Shown: one piece after another, positions 23,005 to 37,531 of the stretch
Numbering within the stretch: position 1 is the stretch's first letter
How the letters are laid out: each line of letters begins with the position of its first letter
Assembly (NCBI GenBank): GCA_030154025.1
Contig: JASKKT010000016.1
Location: 1 to 46,607 of the forward strand
Length of the DNA: 46,607 bases
Direction: 5' to 3'
Source: Methanolobus sp.
GTDB lineage: Archaea; Halobacteriota; Methanosarcinia; Methanosarcinales; Methanosarcinaceae
Program-made: the position numbers and the translations under genes
The notes under the pieces: model-generated
Database searches by the model: none
Told to the model about the DNA's origin: nothing
The model's input: the letters and a program-made list of their open reading frames with translations, nothing else

Positions 23005-24633
23005 TCACTCTTTTTCCTTTATCTTCAAAAGGGAATGGTTTATCGTCTGCTCGGGACATATCGTCACGCAGCGCCTGCAGCTTGTACCAAGGCAGTTCTG
23101 GCTGTCAATGTCCACGAAGCGCCCGCCGTCTTTCTCGATAATGACCAAGGCATCCTCGGGACACTCCTCTTCGCACTGGTGGCAGAGTATGCATTTTTCC
23201 ACAGGCGCTTCCAGTATTATCCCGATGTTCTTCACAATTTCAAGGCCAAGGTAGCCGACATCGTCGATATCCTTCTTGACCCTCTTCTCTATCTCCACAT
23301 CCTTAAGGGCTGACGGGAATAGCGGAATTCCGTACATCTGCAGCATCTGGTCGTACATCTCATTAGGCATACCCTGCTGCCATGAAGCAAGCTCGCACAT
23401 GTAGATCTCCTTGAAGGTCTCGCTGGTTGCCATCATTACATGGTCGGCCTGTATCTTCTTTGCCATCGCTATCACCTCATCGAGCTTGGAGCGGTCCATG
23501 GCTATCTTGCGCGCAAGTCCGATGGAAGTGTTCCCGAACTGGACTATCCCCTGGGAGAAGTCAGGTACCGAGCCTATATGTCTTGCCTTCTCGGCATCCA
23601 CATAGGTGCCTGTCGCACCGGACATGTATGAATATCTGAGATCCTCGTATCTCATTCCCGCCTCCACCATGAGTGTCATGTGTGCTGCCCGGATGGCCCC
23701 GATGGCCTTCCCGACCTCCTCCACGTCCCTGTCCATGATGAAGATCCCGTCTCCAAGGCTTATCTTCCCGTTGGGGAGCCTGGGGAGTTTCTTGATCAGG
23801 CCTTCCTTAAGCGCAAGGGCAATAGTGGAAATGACTCCTGTCCCGGTGATGCCTTTTGGCATAACTTCAGAGCTCTCGATGGTGTCTCCTGTGATAGGGT
23901 CTACAAGAGGTCCCTTCACAGGGTTCAGGGCCCCGTCAAGCACGGTCAGCCTCCAGTATCCGTTCTCCATGTTGACGTCGCTGATAGCACCCGGACCTGC
24001 AAGCATGCCGCAGTCTATACCCTGTCCTTCGATGGCCGGGCCTGCAGCTGCGCTTGCGGTCATTATCCTGTCACCTATCTTCAGAGCCATTTCTGCGTTA
24101 GTACCATAATCAGTAACTAAACATGGTTCCTTCTGGTTTATAAAGTCAGTCTCCAGCATCATTGCCAGTGCATCGGCACCTATCTCGTGCTTTATTGCAG
24201 GGGGGACGATTATCTCGCAGTTATCCATCTCAAAGATACCTTTAAATATATCATTTGCAGGGAAGACCCTTGCATCCCTCTTGACATCCAGGATCCCCAA
24301 TGCTTCCTGCTTGTTCTTTCCGGCGTATGCAAGGTCCCTGATCTCTATGTTCTGGAACAGGGAAAGCTGGATCGGGTTTCCACACACTGCTATGCGGAGG
24401 ATACTTTCATGCTCCACCTCGAATTTCTCCAGGATCTTCTTCACAGTCTCCACCATGATCATGTGAGCCACATCCGCTCCTGTGACAATGGCAAAGTCCA
24501 GATGGTCCATAACATTCCCGCCGGGGAGCGGATGACCCATGGTTATGACCGTCTTGACGGTCTCCTGTTTCTCAAGGTCTATCAGTTGCGACCTGAAACC
24601 GCTTGTTCCAAGGTCCAGGGATATCACATACAT
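23005..24633 (-). CDS. ramA: Corrinoid activation protein RamA (ATP-dependent reductive activase)
   Basis: RamA reduces inactive Co(II) corrinoid proteins of the methylamine methyltransferases to Co(I) using ATP. The ASKHA-type N-terminal region opens with MYVISLDLGTSGFRSQLIDL. Around residues 170-200 lie TDYGTNAEMALKIG and AAAGPAIEGQGI. The C terminus has two 4Fe-4S clusters: CILCHQCEEECPEDA and CLGTSCRRCVTICPE. The length of 542 residues suits the family. ATG 24633 follows AAGGAGAG; the TTG six bases earlier is less likely. It lies 18 nt after pylD, so it is the last gene of the pylSBCD operon and is probably made together with the pyrrolysine enzymes. Confidence 0.95.
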   Translation of the reverse strand: MYVISLDLGTSGFRSQLIDLEKQETVKTVITMGHPLPGGNVMDHLDFAIVTGADVAHMIMVETVKKILEKFEVEHESILRIAVCGNPIQLSLFQNIEIRDLAYAGKNKQEALGILDVKRDARVFPANDIFKGIFEMDNCEIIVPPAIKHEIGADALAMMLETDFINQKEPCLVTDYGTNAEMALKIGDRIMTASAAAGPAIEGQGIDCGMLAGPGAISDVNMENGYWRLTVLDGALNPVKGPLVDPITGDTIESSEVMPKGITGTGVISTIALALKEGLIKKLPRLPNGKISLGDGIFIMDRDVEEVGKAIGAIRAAHMTLMVEAGMRYEDLRYSYMSGATGTYVDAEKARHIGSVPDFSQGIVQFGNTSIGLARKIAMDRSKLDEVIAMAKKIQADHVMMATSETFKEIYMCELASWQQGMPNEMYDQMLQMYGIPLFPSALKDVEIEKRVKKDIDDVGYLGLEIVKNIGIILEAPVEKCILCHQCEEECPEDALVIIEKDGGRFVDIDSQNCLGTSCRRCVTICPEQTINHSLLKIKEKE

Positions 24634-24651
24634 GTTCAACTCTCCTTTTTA

Positions 24652-25434
24652 CTATTGCATAACCGAATACAGCATAGATGCCACCCCGATGACCAGGGGC
24701 TCCATGACAAGGTCCACGCGGTACTTCCTACCCATCTCCGGAGGCAGGCCACATGGTATGCCGGGTGTCGATACCAGGCACCTTTCCTCTATCATGCCTT
24801 CAGATATGGTGTCCGGATTGGGGGTAGCCTCAAAGACCATGGAGAACCTCTTCCTGTCCTCCCTGCAGTAAGGCTTGATCCCCAGCTCCTGCACGGCATT
24901 TTCCAGGAATGTCCTGTTAGGGTCGCAGGCATACACATTGAATCCTTTCCTGACAAGATGTGCAGCCCCTGCATAACCCACCCTGCCAAGGCCTATGACA
25001 AGAATATCCTTTGATGTTGCCTCCCTGAACCTGGAAGCGATCTCAGCATAGATGACACCCGTGGCAACGTGGTTGCTCACGATCCTGCCGTTGTGCAGGT
25101 TATGCGCGACGAACATATGGTCATCTGCCATGAGTATTATATCAGCTCCCTGGGAGACTGCCTCGTAATAACCGGTTATATCGGGGTGTTCTGTAATGAA
25201 CCCGTTAAGTCCGAAATATTGTGCAATGAACAGCAGGGAGGATGCAAAATTGCCGATGATGCCCTCACCTGATGTTATAGGGACAATTCCCACTTTCTGG
25301 GAACCCGGTTTTGTGCCGTACAGTTCCTCGCATATCCTACGGACATCGAGCCCTGTAACCCTCTTAATAGTAGCATCGTTCTCTTCCAGCTGCACGGACA
25401 GGTTCTCAAGATCCTGGGGCGTCAGGAGTGCCAT
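24652..25434 (-). CDS. pylD: Pyrrolysine synthesis enzyme PylD (dehydrogenase)
   Basis: PylD oxidises L-lysine-N6-3-methyl-D-ornithine, and cyclisation gives pyrrolysine. The C-terminal Rossmann domain has ILVIGLGRVGYAGAAHLV (GxGxxG, about residue 155). Earlier segments GIVPITSGEGIIGNF and ADDHMFVAHNLHNG are typical of the family. The length is 260 residues, against 259 that I recall for M. barkeri. The start ATG 25434 lies 2 nt after the pylC stop. It ends in UAG (24652-24654) followed at once by in-frame UAA, a tandem stop that limits amber readthrough to one added residue. Confidence 0.95.
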   Translation of the reverse strand: MALLTPQDLENLSVQLEENDATIKRVTGLDVRRICEELYGTKPGSQKVGIVPITSGEGIIGNFASSLLFIAQYFGLNGFITEHPDITGYYEAVSQGADIILMADDHMFVAHNLHNGRIVSNHVATGVIYAEIASRFREATSKDILVIGLGRVGYAGAAHLVRKGFNVYACDPNRTFLENAVQELGIKPYCREDRKRFSMVFEATPNPDTISEGMIEERCLVSTPGIPCGLPPEMGRKYRVDLVMEPLVIGVASMLYSVMQ

Positions 25435-25436
25435 GT

Positions 25437-26531
25437 TCAGGCCCCCTGGCTGATCCCAAGATATTCCCGGAGCATTCTGAAACCTCTCTGCCTGTTGGCA
25501 TCCGAGCCTTCCTTGTCCGGAGCCCAGCTGACCATGGTGAACACTTTCCTTTCCCCGCTGCATTCGAAGATCTCGAGGCCTTCGGATGCATGGAACTCAT
25601 GGTAGTCAGTTCCCTGAGACAGTACATGCTCCCCAATAGGTACAAGGTCACCGTCCCTGAAGAGCAGGTGCTCGTAGGTGCAGTGGTTCTTTTCGGGGAC
25701 TCCGTCATTTTCACGGACCCCTGATACGAATGCCTGCAAGAGCAGCTCTATGAGGTTCACACCTGAAGAATGATATACTATCGTGGGTGTCTGGCTGGGG
25801 AATCTCGCATCTATCTCAAGGACTTTCAATCCCCTGGGACTGTCTATTGCTTCGACATCCATGATGCCCTTGAGGTTCAGGTGCTTTGCGAGCTTGTATG
25901 TTATCTCCCTGAACTCGGGGTAATTCCCGAGGGGAGTTACCATGTGGCAGTCATATGTCCCGTCAATATGCACTTTTGTTTCCTTTACAACTTCAAAGCT
26001 CTCGCCGTCCCCTATAACTTCCAGGGAAACTACGTCTCCTTCCACGTATTCCTCGATAAGCATGGATGGGTCAAGGCTCACCAGGCCCTTGTCATCATAG
26101 ATGATAGCTGTCCCGATGCTGCTGCTCTCGCAGGGCGGTTTCACAAAATAGGGCGGTGATGTGGGATTGTCCAGGGGTATGGGAATGTCGATGGAGCGGA
26201 AGTACTCCTTTGAGCGTTTCTTATCCATGCTGATGTGATAGGCATCAAAATCAAAGAGCATGGGGCAGGCTAGCTTATCGCTGATCGTCCTGAGGAAATT
26301 GATGGTTTCCAGGTTCTCGTTCACCGGAAGCACTGCCACCGCATTCCCTGAAAGTCCGATGAGCTTTTCCGGCTCCTTTGTAACATCAAAGCAATGGAAC
26401 TCGTCGGCTACGTTCTTTATGAGGGGCCTCTCCTTTTTATCGATCAGCACCACGCGCAGCCCTGCCTTCTTTGCAAGGTAGCTTGCCTCAAAGCCCTGTA
26501 GCTTTCCTCCGATAAGGATTATGTTTCTCAT
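25437..26531 (-). CDS. pylC: Pyrrolysine synthesis ligase PylC (ATP-grasp)
   Basis: PylC joins 3-methyl-D-ornithine to the epsilon-amino group of lysine using ATP. The N terminus MRNIILIGGKLQGFEASYLA is the nucleotide-fold start. The ATP-grasp core includes PYFVKPPCESSSIGTAI, LIEEYVEGDVVSLEVIG, and the metal/catalytic stretch KVLEIDARFPSQTPTIVYHS. Its 364 residues match the family. ATG 26531 overlaps the pylB stop in an ATGA, so the genes are translationally coupled. Upstream extension of the frame lies inside pylB and is not real. Confidence 0.95.
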   Translation of the reverse strand: MRNIILIGGKLQGFEASYLAKKAGLRVVLIDKKERPLIKNVADEFHCFDVTKEPEKLIGLSGNAVAVLPVNENLETINFLRTISDKLACPMLFDFDAYHISMDKKRSKEYFRSIDIPIPLDNPTSPPYFVKPPCESSSIGTAIIYDDKGLVSLDPSMLIEEYVEGDVVSLEVIGDGESFEVVKETKVHIDGTYDCHMVTPLGNYPEFREITYKLAKHLNLKGIMDVEAIDSPRGLKVLEIDARFPSQTPTIVYHSSGVNLIELLLQAFVSGVRENDGVPEKNHCTYEHLLFRDGDLVPIGEHVLSQGTDYHEFHASEGLEIFECSGERKVFTMVSWAPDKEGSDANRQRGFRMLREYLGISQGA

Positions 26532-27586
26532 GCTGTCAGCCCCACTATCCTGTTGAAGTCGGACTGGCTTGCAGGCTCCATTCCCATGGTCTTCAGGCAC
26601 TCCACAACGCTTTTAGGGTCCCTGTGCCTTTCCTGGAAGCCCCTGTCGTAGTTGACAACTCCTTCCAGTGCAGAGTTTGAAGGTATTATTGATGTGACCA
26701 CATTTGCCCCGGCATTGAGCCTGTGCACCATCCCGGGAATGCCTTCAAGGTCAAGGGATGCGGGTATGAGCCTGCCGGGGAACATGAGCCGAAGGATTGC
26801 GATTATCTTCAGCTCCTCGGTGCTTGATATCCGGTCAACCTTCTCAAGAGGCGTGCCTTCCTGGGGTACGAAGGTCATCACCCTCACCATGTCAGGGCTG
26901 TTGGTTTCCATACCCCTGAGCGACTTTATGGTGGATTCGATATCATTGCCCACACCGGTGAGTATCCCGTCCTCTACACAATAGCCTATGCTTTTGGCGA
27001 ACTTACGTGCATTGACCCTGTCCTCGAAGGACTGCCCGACCCTCAGTTTCCGGTAGAGGTCCCTGTCGTGTGTCTCCTGGTAGAGTGCAAGGAAGTTGGC
27101 TCCGCTGTCATGCAGTTCCCTGAGGGCATCATTTCCCATAATCCCCGGGGAAATCATGATTGGAAGGCCAAGTTCTGATCTCACTGTCTTTACCAGGTCA
27201 ACGAATCTCTCAGGCTTCTCATGGAAGTAGGGGTCCTCGCCCATGGTCAGGTCAACCATGTGGATGCTCTCTCCTTTGAGTCCCCTGCAGATGTTGCGCA
27301 CCTCATCTATGCTCAGGCGGTACCTGTCTATCCCGTGTGATTCCCTGTAATAGCAGAAAGCGCACTTGTTCTTGCAGTAGGTGGAAAAATAAACAAAACT
27401 GTAGAGGAAGACCTTGTTGCCGAAGAAGTGGTCCCTCACCTTCCTTGCTGCGTAGAACAGCTTTTCAAGCTGGTCCTTGTCATTTATCTGCAACAGTCTC
27501 CCGAGGTCGTTATCTGAGAGCTGTGCTCCTTCAATTATCCTTCCTGCAAAATCATCAAGATCGTGTTGTGTCATGTTATTCAGCAA
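26528..27586 (-). CDS. pylB: 3-methylornithine synthase PylB (radical SAM)
   Basis: PylB rearranges lysine to 3-methyl-D-ornithine, the first step of pyrrolysine synthesis. The radical-SAM cluster motif is YFSTYCKNKCAFCYYRES (CxxxCxxC, about residue 73). Further family features are VDLTMGEDPYFHE and FVPQEGTPLE. The protein has 352 residues if the TTG at 27586 is the start. That start follows GAGGTGG closely and aligns with the M. barkeri N terminus as I recall it (MIQKM...). The ATG at 27574 is the alternative. It starts 9 nt after pylS and overlaps pylC. Confidence 0.95.
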   Translation of the reverse strand: MLNNMTQHDLDDFAGRIIEGAQLSDNDLGRLLQINDKDQLEKLFYAARKVRDHFFGNKVFLYSFVYFSTYCKNKCAFCYYRESHGIDRYRLSIDEVRNICRGLKGESIHMVDLTMGEDPYFHEKPERFVDLVKTVRSELGLPIMISPGIMGNDALRELHDSGANFLALYQETHDRDLYRKLRVGQSFEDRVNARKFAKSIGYCVEDGILTGVGNDIESTIKSLRGMETNSPDMVRVMTFVPQEGTPLEKVDRISSTEELKIIAILRLMFPGRLIPASLDLEGIPGMVHRLNAGANVVTSIIPSNSALEGVVNYDRGFQERHRDPKSVVECLKTMGMEPASQSDFNRIVGLTA

Positions 27587-27595
27587 GCTACCACC

Positions 27596-29535
<1,940 letters not shown>

Positions 29536-32591: not shown

Positions 32592-34511
32592 ATGCACTAT
32601 AGTCTTGGGATAGATGCCGGCGGAACATATACAGATGCAGTGATCATCAGGAACTCTGACAGGGAAGTTATCGATTCCAATAAGGCCCTGACTACTTATC
32701 CTGATCTGCTGAAAGGGATCGAGAACGCTATTGATGGGCTGGATGAACAATACATGAAGGACGTAAGGCTTGTTTCGGTGTCCACCACGCTTGCCACCAA
32801 TACGATCCTCGAGAAGACAGGATACCCGGTAGCTCTTATCCTCATCGGCAAGCACACCCTGCCGGGAAGCACTCCTATAAGTGAACTTGCGGTCATCAGG
32901 GGTGGACACAATCTCAACGGCACTGAGGACGAGAGGCTTGATACCGAGGCTATAAGAGAATATGTCCTTAAGGTCAAAGACAGGGTATCGGCATTTGCGG
33001 TGTCTTCGTATTTCAGTGTAAGGAACCCCGATCATGAGTTAAGGGCTAAGGAACTGATCACAACATTGAGTGACCTGCCTGTGGTATGCGGTCACGAGCT
33101 CTCCCAGGACCTGGGGGCCTATGAAAGGGGTGTGACGGCATACCTGAATGCTCAACTGCTGCCTGTAGCACGCCACTTTATAGACGCCATCATTTCCGAC
33201 ATCAGAAAGAGAGGAATTGATGCGAAGCTGATGATGCTCAAATGCGACGGATCTGTGATCAGTATAGAAGAAGCGCTGGAGAGGCCGATAGAGTCTGTTT
33301 TTTCAGGCCCTGCAGCAAGCCTTATGGGAGCATCCTTCCTGTCCAGGAGCGACACCTGTGCTGTAATTGATGTGGGCGGGACCAGCACTGATGTAGCGGT
33401 CATACACAATGGTTTCCCGCAGCTTGTAGATACCGGTGCCATGGTCGGTGGTTGGCACACGAAGGTCAAGGCCATACGAATGGAGACCTCAGCAATGGGC
33501 GGTGACAGCCATGTGTGGATCAGGAACCGGGCCATCAATATCGGACCCAGGAGAGTCGTACCTCTGTGCCTGGCTGCTGTAAAGTACCCGGGCTTCAAGG
33601 AGCTATTGAAGGCCGGCCGTACTCCCTCCAGATTCCAGCTGGCAGAGAACATCCAGCCTACAAAGTTCTTTGTCACGACAGGAAAGCAGGTCAGTGGCCT
33701 TGGAGAATACGAAAGGGAGATCCTCTCCATAATAGGTGAGGAGCCTGTCTCCCTCAATGATATCTTCTGGAAGATGGGCAAGCTGATATCTCCGGACCAT
33801 ATCGATCCCCTGATACAGAAAAGGCTGGTGCAGGCCATTGGTTTCACCCCCACTGACGCTCTCCATGTGCTTGGAGAGTATACCGGGTGGGACAGCGAAG
33901 CCTCCTTGATAGGGGCCAGGCACCTTGCAAGGCTGACCTCCATGGATGAATATGAGCTGTGCAGGAGCATCAAAAAAGAAGTAGCGATCAACATGGCCTT
34001 GAGCCTGATGGGTTACATGTTCGAAGGTGTCGAAAGACAGTCTATCGAGAAGATCCTGAGGGGCGATTATCTGTCCCAGTTCAAGGTGAATGTTCCGGTA
34101 ATACTGCTGGGAGGGCCTGTGAGGGCCTATGTGGAAGAGCTTGGGCGTCTGATAGATGCTCAGATATTGGTTCCCGATCATGCCGAGGTTGGCAATGCAG
34201 TGGGAGCACTGGTGGGTAAAGGAATAAAAAGGGTCGAGATACTGGTCAAGTCATTCTATGAAAAGACCCAGAGATCCATCCTGGTCTTTTCCCCGGAGGG
34301 AAGGAAGCAGTTCTCAACCCATCAGGAAGCTATCGAGTACGCCACAAAGCTCGGTAACCGGCTCATACTTGACTACATGGTGGATTCAGGTATCGAGTAT
34401 GATGATATCGATATAAGCGTGAGGAGTGAGGACATCGCAATGGAGGAGGAAGGTGTGACTCCCATTGAAACGAGGATGGTCTTCCTGGGAGTCGGGGTTC
34501 CGAAGGCCTGA
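32592..34511 (+). CDS. Hydantoinase/oxoprolinase-family ATPase-like protein, copy 1
   Basis: This 639-residue protein has the HyuA/5-oxoprolinase architecture. The Hydant_A_N domain begins MHYSLGIDAGGTYTDAV (an ASKHA-type phosphate loop). The Hydantoinase_A domain contains DVGGTSTDVAVI and METSAMGGDSHVW, with a C-terminal domain after about residue 470. Family members cleave cyclic amides with ATP, but no HyuB-type partner gene is here, so hydantoin or oxoproline cleavage is doubtful. Related ASKHA folds include RamA-type activases. It is paralogous to the gene at 37559-39481: 61 of the first 86 residues are identical by hand alignment. pylT follows 100 nt downstream. Confidence 0.85.
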   Translation: MHYSLGIDAGGTYTDAVIIRNSDREVIDSNKALTTYPDLLKGIENAIDGLDEQYMKDVRLVSVSTTLATNTILEKTGYPVALILIGKHTLPGSTPISELAVIRGGHNLNGTEDERLDTEAIREYVLKVKDRVSAFAVSSYFSVRNPDHELRAKELITTLSDLPVVCGHELSQDLGAYERGVTAYLNAQLLPVARHFIDAIISDIRKRGIDAKLMMLKCDGSVISIEEALERPIESVFSGPAASLMGASFLSRSDTCAVIDVGGTSTDVAVIHNGFPQLVDTGAMVGGWHTKVKAIRMETSAMGGDSHVWIRNRAINIGPRRVVPLCLAAVKYPGFKELLKAGRTPSRFQLAENIQPTKFFVTTGKQVSGLGEYEREILSIIGEEPVSLNDIFWKMGKLISPDHIDPLIQKRLVQAIGFTPTDALHVLGEYTGWDSEASLIGARHLARLTSMDEYELCRSIKKEVAINMALSLMGYMFEGVERQSIEKILRGDYLSQFKVNVPVILLGGPVRAYVEELGRLIDAQILVPDHAEVGNAVGALVGKGIKRVEILVKSFYEKTQRSILVFSPEGRKQFSTHQEAIEYATKLGNRLILDYMVDSGIEYDDIDISVRSEDIAMEEEGVTPIETRMVFLGVGVPKA

Positions 34512-34568: not shown

Positions 34569-34581
34569 AAATATAAATATT
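34569..34581 (+). promoter_or_regulatory. TATA-like box for pylT
   Basis: AAATATAAATATT lies about 30-40 bp before the 5' end of the mature tRNA-Pyl, the right place for an archaeal TATA box if a short 5' leader is processed by RNase P. This indicates that pylT is transcribed on its own. Confidence 0.5.
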
Positions 34582-34611: not shown

Positions 34612-34683
34612 GGAAATCGGATCAGGTTGATCAAATGGACTCTAAATCCGTTTAGCCGGGTTAAATTCCCGGGGTTTCCGCCA
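34612..34683 (+). tRNA. pylT: tRNA-Pyl, anticodon CUA
   Basis: This is the amber-decoding tRNA for pyrrolysine, with its unusual features. The acceptor stem is GGAAATC/GGTTTCC (one G-U pair). Only one base (G619) stands between acceptor and D stem. The D stem is GATC/GATC with a 5-nt loop that lacks a normal GG pair pattern. The 6-bp anticodon stem is AATGGA/TCCGTT around CTCTAAA (anticodon CTA at 34642-34644). The variable loop has 3 nt, and the T stem CCGGG/CCCGG has the loop TTAAATT without TTC. The discriminator is G, and CCA is encoded at 34681-34683. It is closely similar to M. barkeri tRNA-Pyl from memory. It serves the amber codons of mttB and mtbB. Confidence 0.97.
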
Positions 34684-34694
34684 TTTAACTTAAG

Positions 34695-34720
34695 ATCATT
34701 ATGTGATATCACATAATGAT
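34695..34720. promoter_or_regulatory. Perfect 26-bp palindrome after pylT
   Basis: The 13-base half-site ATCATTATGTGAT is followed immediately by its exact reverse complement. It begins 11 bp after the encoded CCA and is followed by a T-run at about 34730-34734. It could be the pylT terminator, or an operator for the sensor gene that starts at 34961. Confidence 0.5.
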
Positions 34721-34960
34721 AACACACTATTTTTACAGTCTGTAGCATTCACGGTCAATCAGCTTCAGTGCCGTATGCCTGTTCTGTCTGTTCTTGTTTC
34801 CCTGTATGCTGTGAACTTCTTGGGGTAATTGGCCATTGCGGAAAATATATATATTACCTATTCCGTCCGTCAATAGCAATAATCTTAAGGTCTATAAAGG
34901 TTTAACCTAAAGATGCTAAAACTATGTTCCATCCAAAGAGAATATGTTTGCGGGAAAATC
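34721..34960. promoter_or_regulatory. Leader/promoter region of the PAS/GAF sensor
   Basis: After the palindrome the sequence holds a TATA-rich box at about 34843-34857 (AAAATATATATATTACC). This is the likely promoter of the sensor gene and would give a 75-80 nt leader. Nothing else is recognised in it. Confidence 0.45.
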
Positions 34961-37531
34961 ATGTCGAATACCATAGATGTTGAGAAGAAACTGGAAGCCG
35001 TCTACAACAGTAGTCCTGTTATTTCCTTTTTGTGGAAAGCAGAAGGTGAGTGGCCCGTAGAATCCGTTTCTGGGAATGTTTCGCAGTTAGGCTACACTCC
35101 GGAAGATTTTCTTTCAGGCAAAGTGCTCTATGGGCATCTCGTGCATCCGGATGATCTTGACAGGGTGCATCTGGAAGTCGATAAACATTCCAAAAAGAAA
35201 AACACCTCTTTCTTTGCACTTAATTACAGGATAGTGGCCAAGAAAGGAGACATACGCTGGGTGACAGAGAGATCATTCATAAAGCGTGACAGTGAAGGGA
35301 ACATCACTCATTTTCAGGGTATTATCATCGATAACACCGAACTTGAAAGAACAGAAAGGGCCTTGATGGAGACCGGGAAAAAATACCAGACCATATTTGA
35401 GAAGTCACCGGTGGGCATACTCTATTTTGATGAGAATGGCGTCGTAACCCACTGCAACGAAAGTTGTGCAAAGGTCCTCAAGGCTCCTGTGAGCAAGATA
35501 ATAGGCTTCAATCTCCTTTCAAAGCTATCCGATGAAAGCCTCAAGGAAGCAGTTGAGATGGTTTTCCTGGGCAATCAGGGTCATTATGAAGGCAGCCATC
35601 TTTCGGCGATAAGCGGAAAACAGGTCTTTACAAAGGCAAGTTTCACTCCCATAATGTCAGATGACGGTTCCCTCCTGGGAGGCATCGGTATAATCGAAGA
35701 CACAGAGGAGCGCAGGCAGGCAGAAGAGCTTATCCGCCTTAACGAAACACGCCTTGAGGCGCTCCTGGAACTTTACCAGATGCAGGATTCCCCGATGCCT
35801 GATATTGCAGAGTTCACCATACAGAAGGCCGTGGAATTCACAGGCAGCAAGATCGGTTACCTGGAATTCCTCAATGAGGATGAGAATGTACTGGAGACCT
35901 ACCGATGGCCCTATCAGGGAAAGGACGTGCTCTCGGTGAACGAGGAGCCCTTCGTGCATCCCATACGTTTTAACGGCTTCTGGGGTGAGGCCATACATGC
36001 ACGCAAGCCTGTCATCGTTAACAGTAACTATGCTTCAGAGCCAGAGGATGATTTTTCCGGCTCAAGTGAAGTCCTTACACGCCATGTTACCATCCCGATA
36101 TTCGAGAGCGAGCAAATAGTCGCTCTTGTGAGCGTTGCGAACAAGGATTCCGATTATAACGAATCTGATGTCAGGCAGCTTACCCTGCTTATGGAGGGCA
36201 TGTGGAAGCTCGTCCAGTATAAGAACAGCAATGACATACTGATCGAAGCCCTGAGGATGCGCAGGGTGCTTGAATCTGTCATGAGCTCAAGTCCTGCTGT
36301 TGTTTTCCTCTGGCGTCCTGAAAAGGACTGGCCTGTGGAGTTCGTGTCAGACAACATCTCCCAGTTCGGTTATAAGGTAGAGGACTTCACATCAGGGAAA
36401 ATCCTTTACGGTGATATCATTCATCCTTCTGACCTCGACAGGGTACGCCAGGAAGTGGACAAGACCTCCAAAGCAGGTTTCTCCGATTTCAGCCAGGAAT
36501 ACAGGGTACTGACAAGATCAGGCCAGGTAAGATGGGTGGATGAAAGAACGATGATCCATTACAACAAGAACGGTATCGTTGACTATCTGCAGGGTATCGT
36601 TGTGGACATTACTGAACGCAAACAGGCAAATAGTTTCATGCGCCTTGAATGCGATCTTGATAATGTCCTTGGCGCCACGGATAACCTGCAGGAGACCTTC
36701 GAGAGGGTGCTGGAATTCACACTGGAGACAAAGGCTATAGATAGTGGTATGATCTATCTGGTGGACGAGAAGACAGGTGAGTTCAATCTTGCTGCTTCCC
36801 GTGGTCTTTCAGAACGTTTTGTAAAGAACTTTTCCCATTTCTCTTCAAACACCATACTTGCCCGCCTTTTCATGACAGGTTATCCTGTTTATAAGTACTT
36901 CTCTGAGATCAACGCCATGCTTCCCGGAGAGGACCTTGGGTTTGAAGGCATGCAGGCTATGGGTTTTATCCCTGTGAAGTTCAACGACGAACTGGTCGCT
37001 GCCATTGCACTCGGGTCCCACAGGGATTTGGAGATCCCTGCAAATTCCAGGAACCTCATAGAGACCATTTCCAATCAGGTCGGTATCATAATCTCCAACA
37101 TGAAAAAGGACTCCGGTATCCAGAAAAACAAGAACAATCTCTGTTCGCTGCTGGATGCCCTCGATGAGCTGGTATTCATAATGGACCTGGAAGGGAAGAT
37201 ACTGCACACTAACAAGACCCTGCACAGGCATCTGAAATATGAGGACAGGGAGCTGTATATGAAGGATTTCCTGCTGCTCTATCCCCAAGGCTGGGAGGAT
37301 GATGTGCTCTCCAACCTTGATGAGATTATGGAGAACAAGTCCTCACATTGTGAGATACCGCTTGTGAGCAAGGAAGGGACACTTGTTCCTGTCAAGACCA
37401 AGTTCACCATCAGTGACTGGGGTGGCCAGGATGTCCTGATAGCTACAGCCTCCATAGTACAGGATCCTGGAATGGAGGAAAACCGCGAGATAGGGGTGGA
37501 GAAAGAGATCAACAACTATTCAGTCTCATGA
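34961..37531 (+). CDS. PAS/GAF multidomain sensor without a kinase domain
   Basis: This 856-residue cytoplasmic protein is built of PAS (about 10-125), PAS (130-250), GAF (265-415), PAS (425-550), GAF (560-715) and PAS (725-840) domains. PAS1 and PAS3 are recent internal duplicates: WPVESVSGNVSQLGYTPEDF against WPVEFVSDNISQFGYKVEDF, and VHPDDLDRV against IHPSDLDRV. No His-box, N-box or G-box follows; the C terminus simply ends. Methanosarcina has PAS/GAF sensors (MsmS, RdmS) that control methyltransferase genes, so a similar role near mttB is possible but unproved. ATG 34961 is chosen; ATG 34913 in frame would add 16 residues. Confidence 0.85.
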   Translation: MSNTIDVEKKLEAVYNSSPVISFLWKAEGEWPVESVSGNVSQLGYTPEDFLSGKVLYGHLVHPDDLDRVHLEVDKHSKKKNTSFFALNYRIVAKKGDIRWVTERSFIKRDSEGNITHFQGIIIDNTELERTERALMETGKKYQTIFEKSPVGILYFDENGVVTHCNESCAKVLKAPVSKIIGFNLLSKLSDESLKEAVEMVFLGNQGHYEGSHLSAISGKQVFTKASFTPIMSDDGSLLGGIGIIEDTEERRQAEELIRLNETRLEALLELYQMQDSPMPDIAEFTIQKAVEFTGSKIGYLEFLNEDENVLETYRWPYQGKDVLSVNEEPFVHPIRFNGFWGEAIHARKPVIVNSNYASEPEDDFSGSSEVLTRHVTIPIFESEQIVALVSVANKDSDYNESDVRQLTLLMEGMWKLVQYKNSNDILIEALRMRRVLESVMSSSPAVVFLWRPEKDWPVEFVSDNISQFGYKVEDFTSGKILYGDIIHPSDLDRVRQEVDKTSKAGFSDFSQEYRVLTRSGQVRWVDERTMIHYNKNGIVDYLQGIVVDITERKQANSFMRLECDLDNVLGATDNLQETFERVLEFTLETKAIDSGMIYLVDEKTGEFNLAASRGLSERFVKNFSHFSSNTILARLFMTGYPVYKYFSEINAMLPGEDLGFEGMQAMGFIPVKFNDELVAAIALGSHRDLEIPANSRNLIETISNQVGIIISNMKKDSGIQKNKNNLCSLLDALDELVFIMDLEGKILHTNKTLHRHLKYEDRELYMKDFLLLYPQGWEDDVLSNLDEIMENKSSHCEIPLVSKEGTLVPVKTKFTISDWGGQDVLIATASIVQDPGMEENREIGVEKEINNYSVS

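Follow-up and report, generated by a model that had tools for sequence, protein, structure and literature searches.

In one clade of the Methanosarcinaceae the gene of the pyrrolysine tRNA, pylT, is separated from the gene of its synthetase, pylS, and this split is clade-wide, not a peculiarity of a single genome. From a comparative analysis of the sequence elements that surround both genes we propose, with moderate confidence, that they belong to two transcription units (pylT and pylSBCD), the second of which would sense charged tRNA-Pyl in trans at a UAG codon of a short leader open reading frame (ORF), and that a hairpin behind pylT would form the 3′ end of the tRNA transcript. The window, i.e., the whole stretch of DNA analysed (46,607 nt of Methanolobus sp.), contains the following features of interest:

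23005-24639, minus strand: ramA-type corrinoid activase (TIGR04270), downstream of pylSBCD, an order shared with relatives
24652-25434, minus strand: pylD (TIGR03911)
25437-26600, minus strand: pylC (TIGR03909)
26528-27586, minus strand: pylB (TIGR03910)
27596-28924, minus strand: pylS (NF007083, 720 bits)
28966-29022, minus strand: amber leader ORF, MSFNKSKGSNWILEYLGF followed by TAG (28968-28966), 44 nt 5′ of the pylS ATG, recognized by its conserved TAG, pN/pS and parsimony
28897-29022, minus strand: span of the leader ORF with TAG translated as pyrrolysine (TAG=O), terminating at a TAA within pylS
29132-29150, minus strand: promoter-proximal dyad of pylS, AATATATATATATACCGAT (also given as AATATATATATATRYCGAT)
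29165-29172, minus strand: putative TATA box of pylS, TTTAAATA, proposed from sequence and position
32592-34511, plus strand: hyuA1, hydantoinase-A-like (Pfam), the nearest gene upstream of pylT
34572-34579, plus strand: TATA box of pylT, TATAAATA, 40 nt 5′ of the tRNA, a motif that recurs in relatives
34612-34683, plus strand: pylT, tRNA-Pyl(CUA) with encoded CCA and a cloverleaf fold (ARAGORN)
34695-34720, plus strand: pylT 3′ hairpin, ATCATTATGTG ATAT CACATAATGAT, starting 11 nt past the CCA, supported by its distribution, pair counts and fold
34728-34735, plus strand: T-rich stretch 3′ of the hairpin, a possible U-tract terminator, whose T-run is kept in the alignment
34913-37531, plus strand: PAS/GAF sensor gene (Pfam) adjoining pylT downstream, in a place that is not conserved

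The tRNA-Pyl is the only tRNA that ARAGORN finds in the whole window. Aligned without gaps with other tRNA-Pyl according to the known structure, it displays the diagnostic features (taken from PMC3941956): the CUA anticodon, a 6-bp anticodon stem, a 5-nt D-loop, a 3-nt variable loop and a single base between the acceptor and D-stem. A second hydantoinase-like gene (Pfam) follows the PAS/GAF gene downstream of pylT, and mttB and mtbB, which contain in-frame TAG and match Rfam PYLIS, are located further along the window. The original prediction held that pylT lies 5.7 kb from pylS on the opposite strand, has its own TATA-like box and left no tRNA in the stretch before pylS, all of which is borne out: 5,688 nt separate the pylS start from pylT (ARAGORN, NF007083), the strands are opposite, the region upstream of pylS is devoid of any tRNA, and the TATA motif recurs between −37 and −54 in almost every split relative as well as in Methanomethylovorans. 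BLAST of the whole genome (2.26 Mb, 86 contigs) found no second copy of pylT, in agreement with the prediction.

To establish how far the split extends, pylS and pylT were located and paired in 112 Methanosarcinaceae genomes. In 67 of them pylT immediately precedes pylS, both genes sharing a strand, and 29 are split, namely 25 Methanolobus, three ANME-3-like genomes (G106, G110, G111) and one sister metagenome-assembled genome (MAG) from a neighbouring genus (G002). All 25 Methanolobus genomes in which pylT was found belong to the split group, so that the detachment, originally regarded as a local peculiarity that would lose this status if it were common in the genus, proves to be shared by 29/29 genomes of the clade once its position is compared across the family. 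The split of Methanolobus psychrophilus was already published; its clade-wide extent is absent from the passages of the main text considered here (PMC5378194). On the PylS tree the split and the hairpin are confined to one 32-row clade (99/94). Where the same contig carries both genes (17 split genomes), the distance between them ranges from about 5 to 87 kb, thus pylT remains in the same region of the chromosome, and their relative orientation varies. In M. halotolerans (G041) and in G049 the tRNA-Pyl covariance model did not find pylT, which is probably due to an assembly gap, since in G041 the hyuA1-pylT region itself seems to be missing. A second, diverged pylT (86%) was observed in G110 (CSMAG_2493; L112 9128-9199); it has its own 3′ hairpin and a mismatched acceptor stem, is preceded by repeats resembling the 5′ end of pylT, and is likely a pseudogene.

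The ancestral gene order can be approached through Methanomethylovorans, the sister group of the split clade on the PylS tree. Its order is hyuA-hyuA-pylT-pylS-B-C-D (L115, L116), and because pylT is retained there between hyuA and pylS, it was probably the pylSBCD block that moved and pylT that kept its place. By the same reasoning the hyuA neighbour of pylT is older than the split. In 19 of the 25 Methanolobus genomes hyuA1 is the adjacent upstream gene, with pylT 100-250 nt downstream of it, which is in favour of the earlier proposal that pylT may respond together with the sensor and hydantoinase-like genes around it. We regard such joint control as very improbable, as pylT has its own TATA box, the gene downstream of it differs between species, hyuA is separated from it by cydAB or a longer stretch in five Methanolobus genomes and is not adjacent in G052, the ANME-3-type genomes and G002, and the adjacency was inherited from before the split. 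The intervening genes in G060 are cydA and cydB of a cytochrome bd oxidase (L108 10527-12888), and a similar gap between hyuA1 and pylT was seen in four other Methanolobus genomes.

The pylT unit of the split clade is marked by an 11-bp hairpin, which a covariance model detects behind pylT in 29/29 split genomes but in 0/67 genomes with adjacent pylT and pylS; outside the clade the model gives four marginal matches only (E 0.03-0.07). Its consensus is TCATTrTGTGA-loop-TCACATAATGA, followed by the T-run. Among 28 distinct sequences pairing is kept in 93% of cells (14-54% in slid controls), and four pairs have changes on both sides. The hairpin occurs once in the genome of the window, as it does in the other split genomes save for a few related copies. 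The trailers of 30 other tRNAs in the same genome lack it, with no stem longer than 8 bp in any of them. Rfam contains no known element that matches either the hairpin or the pylS leader. One may ask if the palindrome is rather a DNA operator for a dimeric regulator, given that it is perfect over 26 bp in this genome and that the stem sequence is strongly conserved. This we consider improbable: the arm-to-arm span ranges from 23 to 28 nt among the split genomes and G.U is the majority state at one pair (20/28), as would be expected of RNA but not of a rigid dimer site, and the palindrome is fixed in position to pylT, not to the downstream genes. An RNA hairpin, presumably involved in the definition or protection of the pylT 3′ end appears the better explanation. 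Its layout is not that of a bacterial-type intrinsic terminator, in which a G+C-rich stem is directly followed by a U-run, as the U-run begins about 9 nt after the stem and a terminator scan does not list the hairpin. Archaeal termination, in the part of the source considered, is described as relying on a U-tract plus aCPSF1 (PMC8716108), and the T-run after the hairpin is perhaps such a terminator.

Several copies of the hairpin were noticed in relatives. In G051 and G058 a gene of M18 aminopeptidase is situated between the pylT hairpin and a second hairpin with trailer (L136 10308-11721; L140 8299-8344; a further locus is L217 1500-1550), in G044 the same gene is found with a hairpin copy far from pylT, and another copy is present in G045 (C71:2367-2412). 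The M18 aminopeptidase arrangement looks like insertion or recombination at the pylT trailer.

The pylS unit has elements of its own. The promoter dyad is conserved in Methanolobus and matches once in this genome (≤1 mismatch). Its arms read GGC..GCC or GAC..GTC depending on the species while their spacing stays fixed, the pattern expected of a regulator binding site, which makes it a candidate for such a site. Between promoter and pylS lies the amber leader, an ORF of 15-18 codons with an SD-like sequence, which ends ..NW.L.YLGF and is followed by TAG 43-46 nt before the pylS start. It was found at 37 loci, in all 27 Methanolobus genomes, in the ANME-3-type genomes, in G002 and L077, and at four loci of the Methanomethylovorans type, and every one of them has TAG; these comprise 35 distinct sequences, 35/35 with TAG, although TAG accounts for 9% of the stops of long ORFs at these loci. 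The leader is common to a 36-row clade of the PylS tree (100/99) made up of the split clade and Methanomethylovorans. Since it is present in Methanomethylovorans, where pylT still adjoins pylS, it is older than the split. The leader is intact in the HMMV ANME-3 MAG, in which pylS itself is broken into fragments and carries a frameshift at its start (L105 621-1502). In G062 (M. vulcani PL 12/M) two contigs (L160, L170) start inside pylS, each with the leader but one of them without the promoter dyad, which points to a possible duplication of pylS.

By parsimony on the PylS tree the leader TAG underwent no change at any of its positions, whereas third positions of the 11 codons before it changed 6.1 times on average. 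In these related sequences pN/pS in frame is 0.39 for the 11 codons before TAG and 0.43 for the 6 codons after it, compared with 0.82-1.82 in other frames of the same sequences, which served as control. Changes are distributed unevenly over codon positions before TAG (p 3e-6, treating changes as independent) and also after it, with p 5e-4 for codons 1-5, a range picked post hoc and likewise assuming independence, and p 0.02 for codons 1-6 under the same assumption. The coding constraint on both sides suggests that UAG probably encodes pyrrolysine, at least some of the time. Past the TAG the constraint spans only about 5-6 codons and the end of the read-through frame varies from −16 to +89 relative to the pylS start, which indicates that conservation of any read-through product does not reach its end. 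In Methanomethylovorans this frame ends in a TGA overlapping the pylS ATG and in a few Methanolobus it stops at −4. An alternative is that UAG is a plain stop and the 18-aa peptide takes part in ordinary coupling or is an arrest peptide, pylS being unlinked to the Pyl supply. The shortness of the post-TAG constraint, a downstream frame that is not kept to the end, and the motif W..L.(Y/F)LGF before the stop, which recalls arrest peptides, are in line with this; yet not one of the 35 distinct leaders switched from TAG to TAA or TGA, and the codons beyond TAG are constrained in the TAG frame but not in others, so we consider it unlikely. Constraint on both sides would be equally expected if the leader encoded a very small protein containing pyrrolysine that has a function of its own and takes no part in pylS control, but the fixed spacing to pylS, the overlap with its start, the C-terminus that is not conserved and the lack of any Pfam match leave this quite improbable.

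Amber ORFs of other kinds were encountered in front of pylS in related genera. Methanohalophilus has, between pylT and pylS, a frame with two in-frame TAGs that runs into pylS, e.g., MLQN-TAG-TPQQM-TAG-ISEVAPIAGAIPYGK (L232-L238, L091, L123); both TAGs are kept in 3/3 sequence groups, the distinct sequences being few. In Methanococcoides, also with few distinct sequences, a mini-ORF MK(C/Y)FAIGA-TAG ends about 4-5 nt short of the pylS start (L002, L004, L009, L250, L251). No amber leader exists in Methanosarcina, where the TAG is not conserved and the start codon is missing.

How could these elements act together? pylT has a conserved TATA box and a 3′ hairpin to itself, and pylS a putative TATA box, a dyad and an amber leader, which lends support to the separate control of tRNA and synthetase that had been predicted. 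We envisage that pylS acquired its promoter and amber leader when pylT was still adjacent, that the pylSBCD block was later relocated and pylT stayed behind with its TATA box, and that the hairpin with the T-run would fix the 3′ end of the monocistronic tRNA. Ribosomes on the leader would stop at UAG, or read through it when Pyl-tRNA-Pyl is plentiful; the outcome at this codon, 44 nt 5′ of the pylS start, would set pylS translation, and the synthetase unit would thereby sense charged tRNA in trans. The location of the leader suggests such regulation, as a UAG at a fixed position ahead of pylS and conserved on both sides may be a point where the decision influences pylS translation. We lean toward negative feedback, since in most species ribosomes that read through would overrun the pylS start; in Methanomethylovorans and the few Methanolobus with a stop at −4, termination would occur beside the pylS start and could instead produce positive coupling. 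The split may instead be a neutral rearrangement with both genes expressed at constant levels, which agrees with the varying distances and orientation and with the fact that tRNA and enzyme act in trans and do not need linkage. The clade-specific conserved hairpin of pylT and the conserved dyad and leader of pylS speak against this explanation, to which we assign a minor, though appreciable, probability.

We put at slightly less than an even chance that a pyrrolysine-coding leader gauges Pyl-tRNA-Pyl at a single UAG, where read-through competes with termination, and thereby governs the synthesis of its own synthetase and of the products of the biosynthesis genes. If true, the leader would be an autogenous regulator of genetic-code expansion. 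How cells that read UAG both as stop and as pyrrolysine restrain Pyl-tRNA is, to our knowledge, an open question, and a UAG conserved in 35 distinct leaders just before pylS offers a directly testable sensor. Sensing by the leader would also explain why the tRNA and synthetase genes could separate: if charged tRNA is sensed in trans the split may have been harmless, and a leader older than the split suggests that control was already separable. Finally, the short read-through frame is a candidate for a pyrrolysine-containing peptide outside the methylamine methyltransferases. A literature search that covered main texts, mostly from outside the subscription journals, found no report of a pylS leader peptide, and earlier reports of the leader or hairpin may exist in other sources.

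Amino-acid-sensing leader peptides, e.g., trpL and TnaC, are short ORFs with the sensed codon, placed before biosynthetic or charging genes. The pylS leader is likewise a short ORF ahead of such genes with the codon of the amino acid presumed to be sensed, as judged by its SD-like sequence, coding signature and invariant TAG; it differs in having one UAG and not a run of codons. Alternative RNA structures coupled to ribosome position were not found either, the leader RNA having no conserved structure (z +0.35), thus a classical attenuator is unsupported. The pyl cluster of Methanosarcinaceae was stated in reviews to be uninterrupted except in Methanohalobium (pylTS / pylBCD; PMC3941956, PMC9499178). 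The window contains the same genes as this pylTSBCD arrangement and keeps the pylS-B-C-D order, but pylT does not immediately precede pylS and is encoded on the other strand. The same split exists in M. psychrophilus R15, where, according to the passages considered, Li et al. (2015) placed tRNA-Pyl distant from the synthetase gene, detected its transcript by dRNA-seq and blamed this distance for the missed annotation of the tRNA (PMC5378194); that report concerns one genome, and its main-text passages considered here contain neither the 3′ hairpin nor the pylS leader. The third pylT of Methanomassiliicoccus luminyensis is also located away from pylS on the complementary strand; it is, however, an extra copy and likely a pseudogene (PMC3941956), whereas the detached pylT described here is the only copy.
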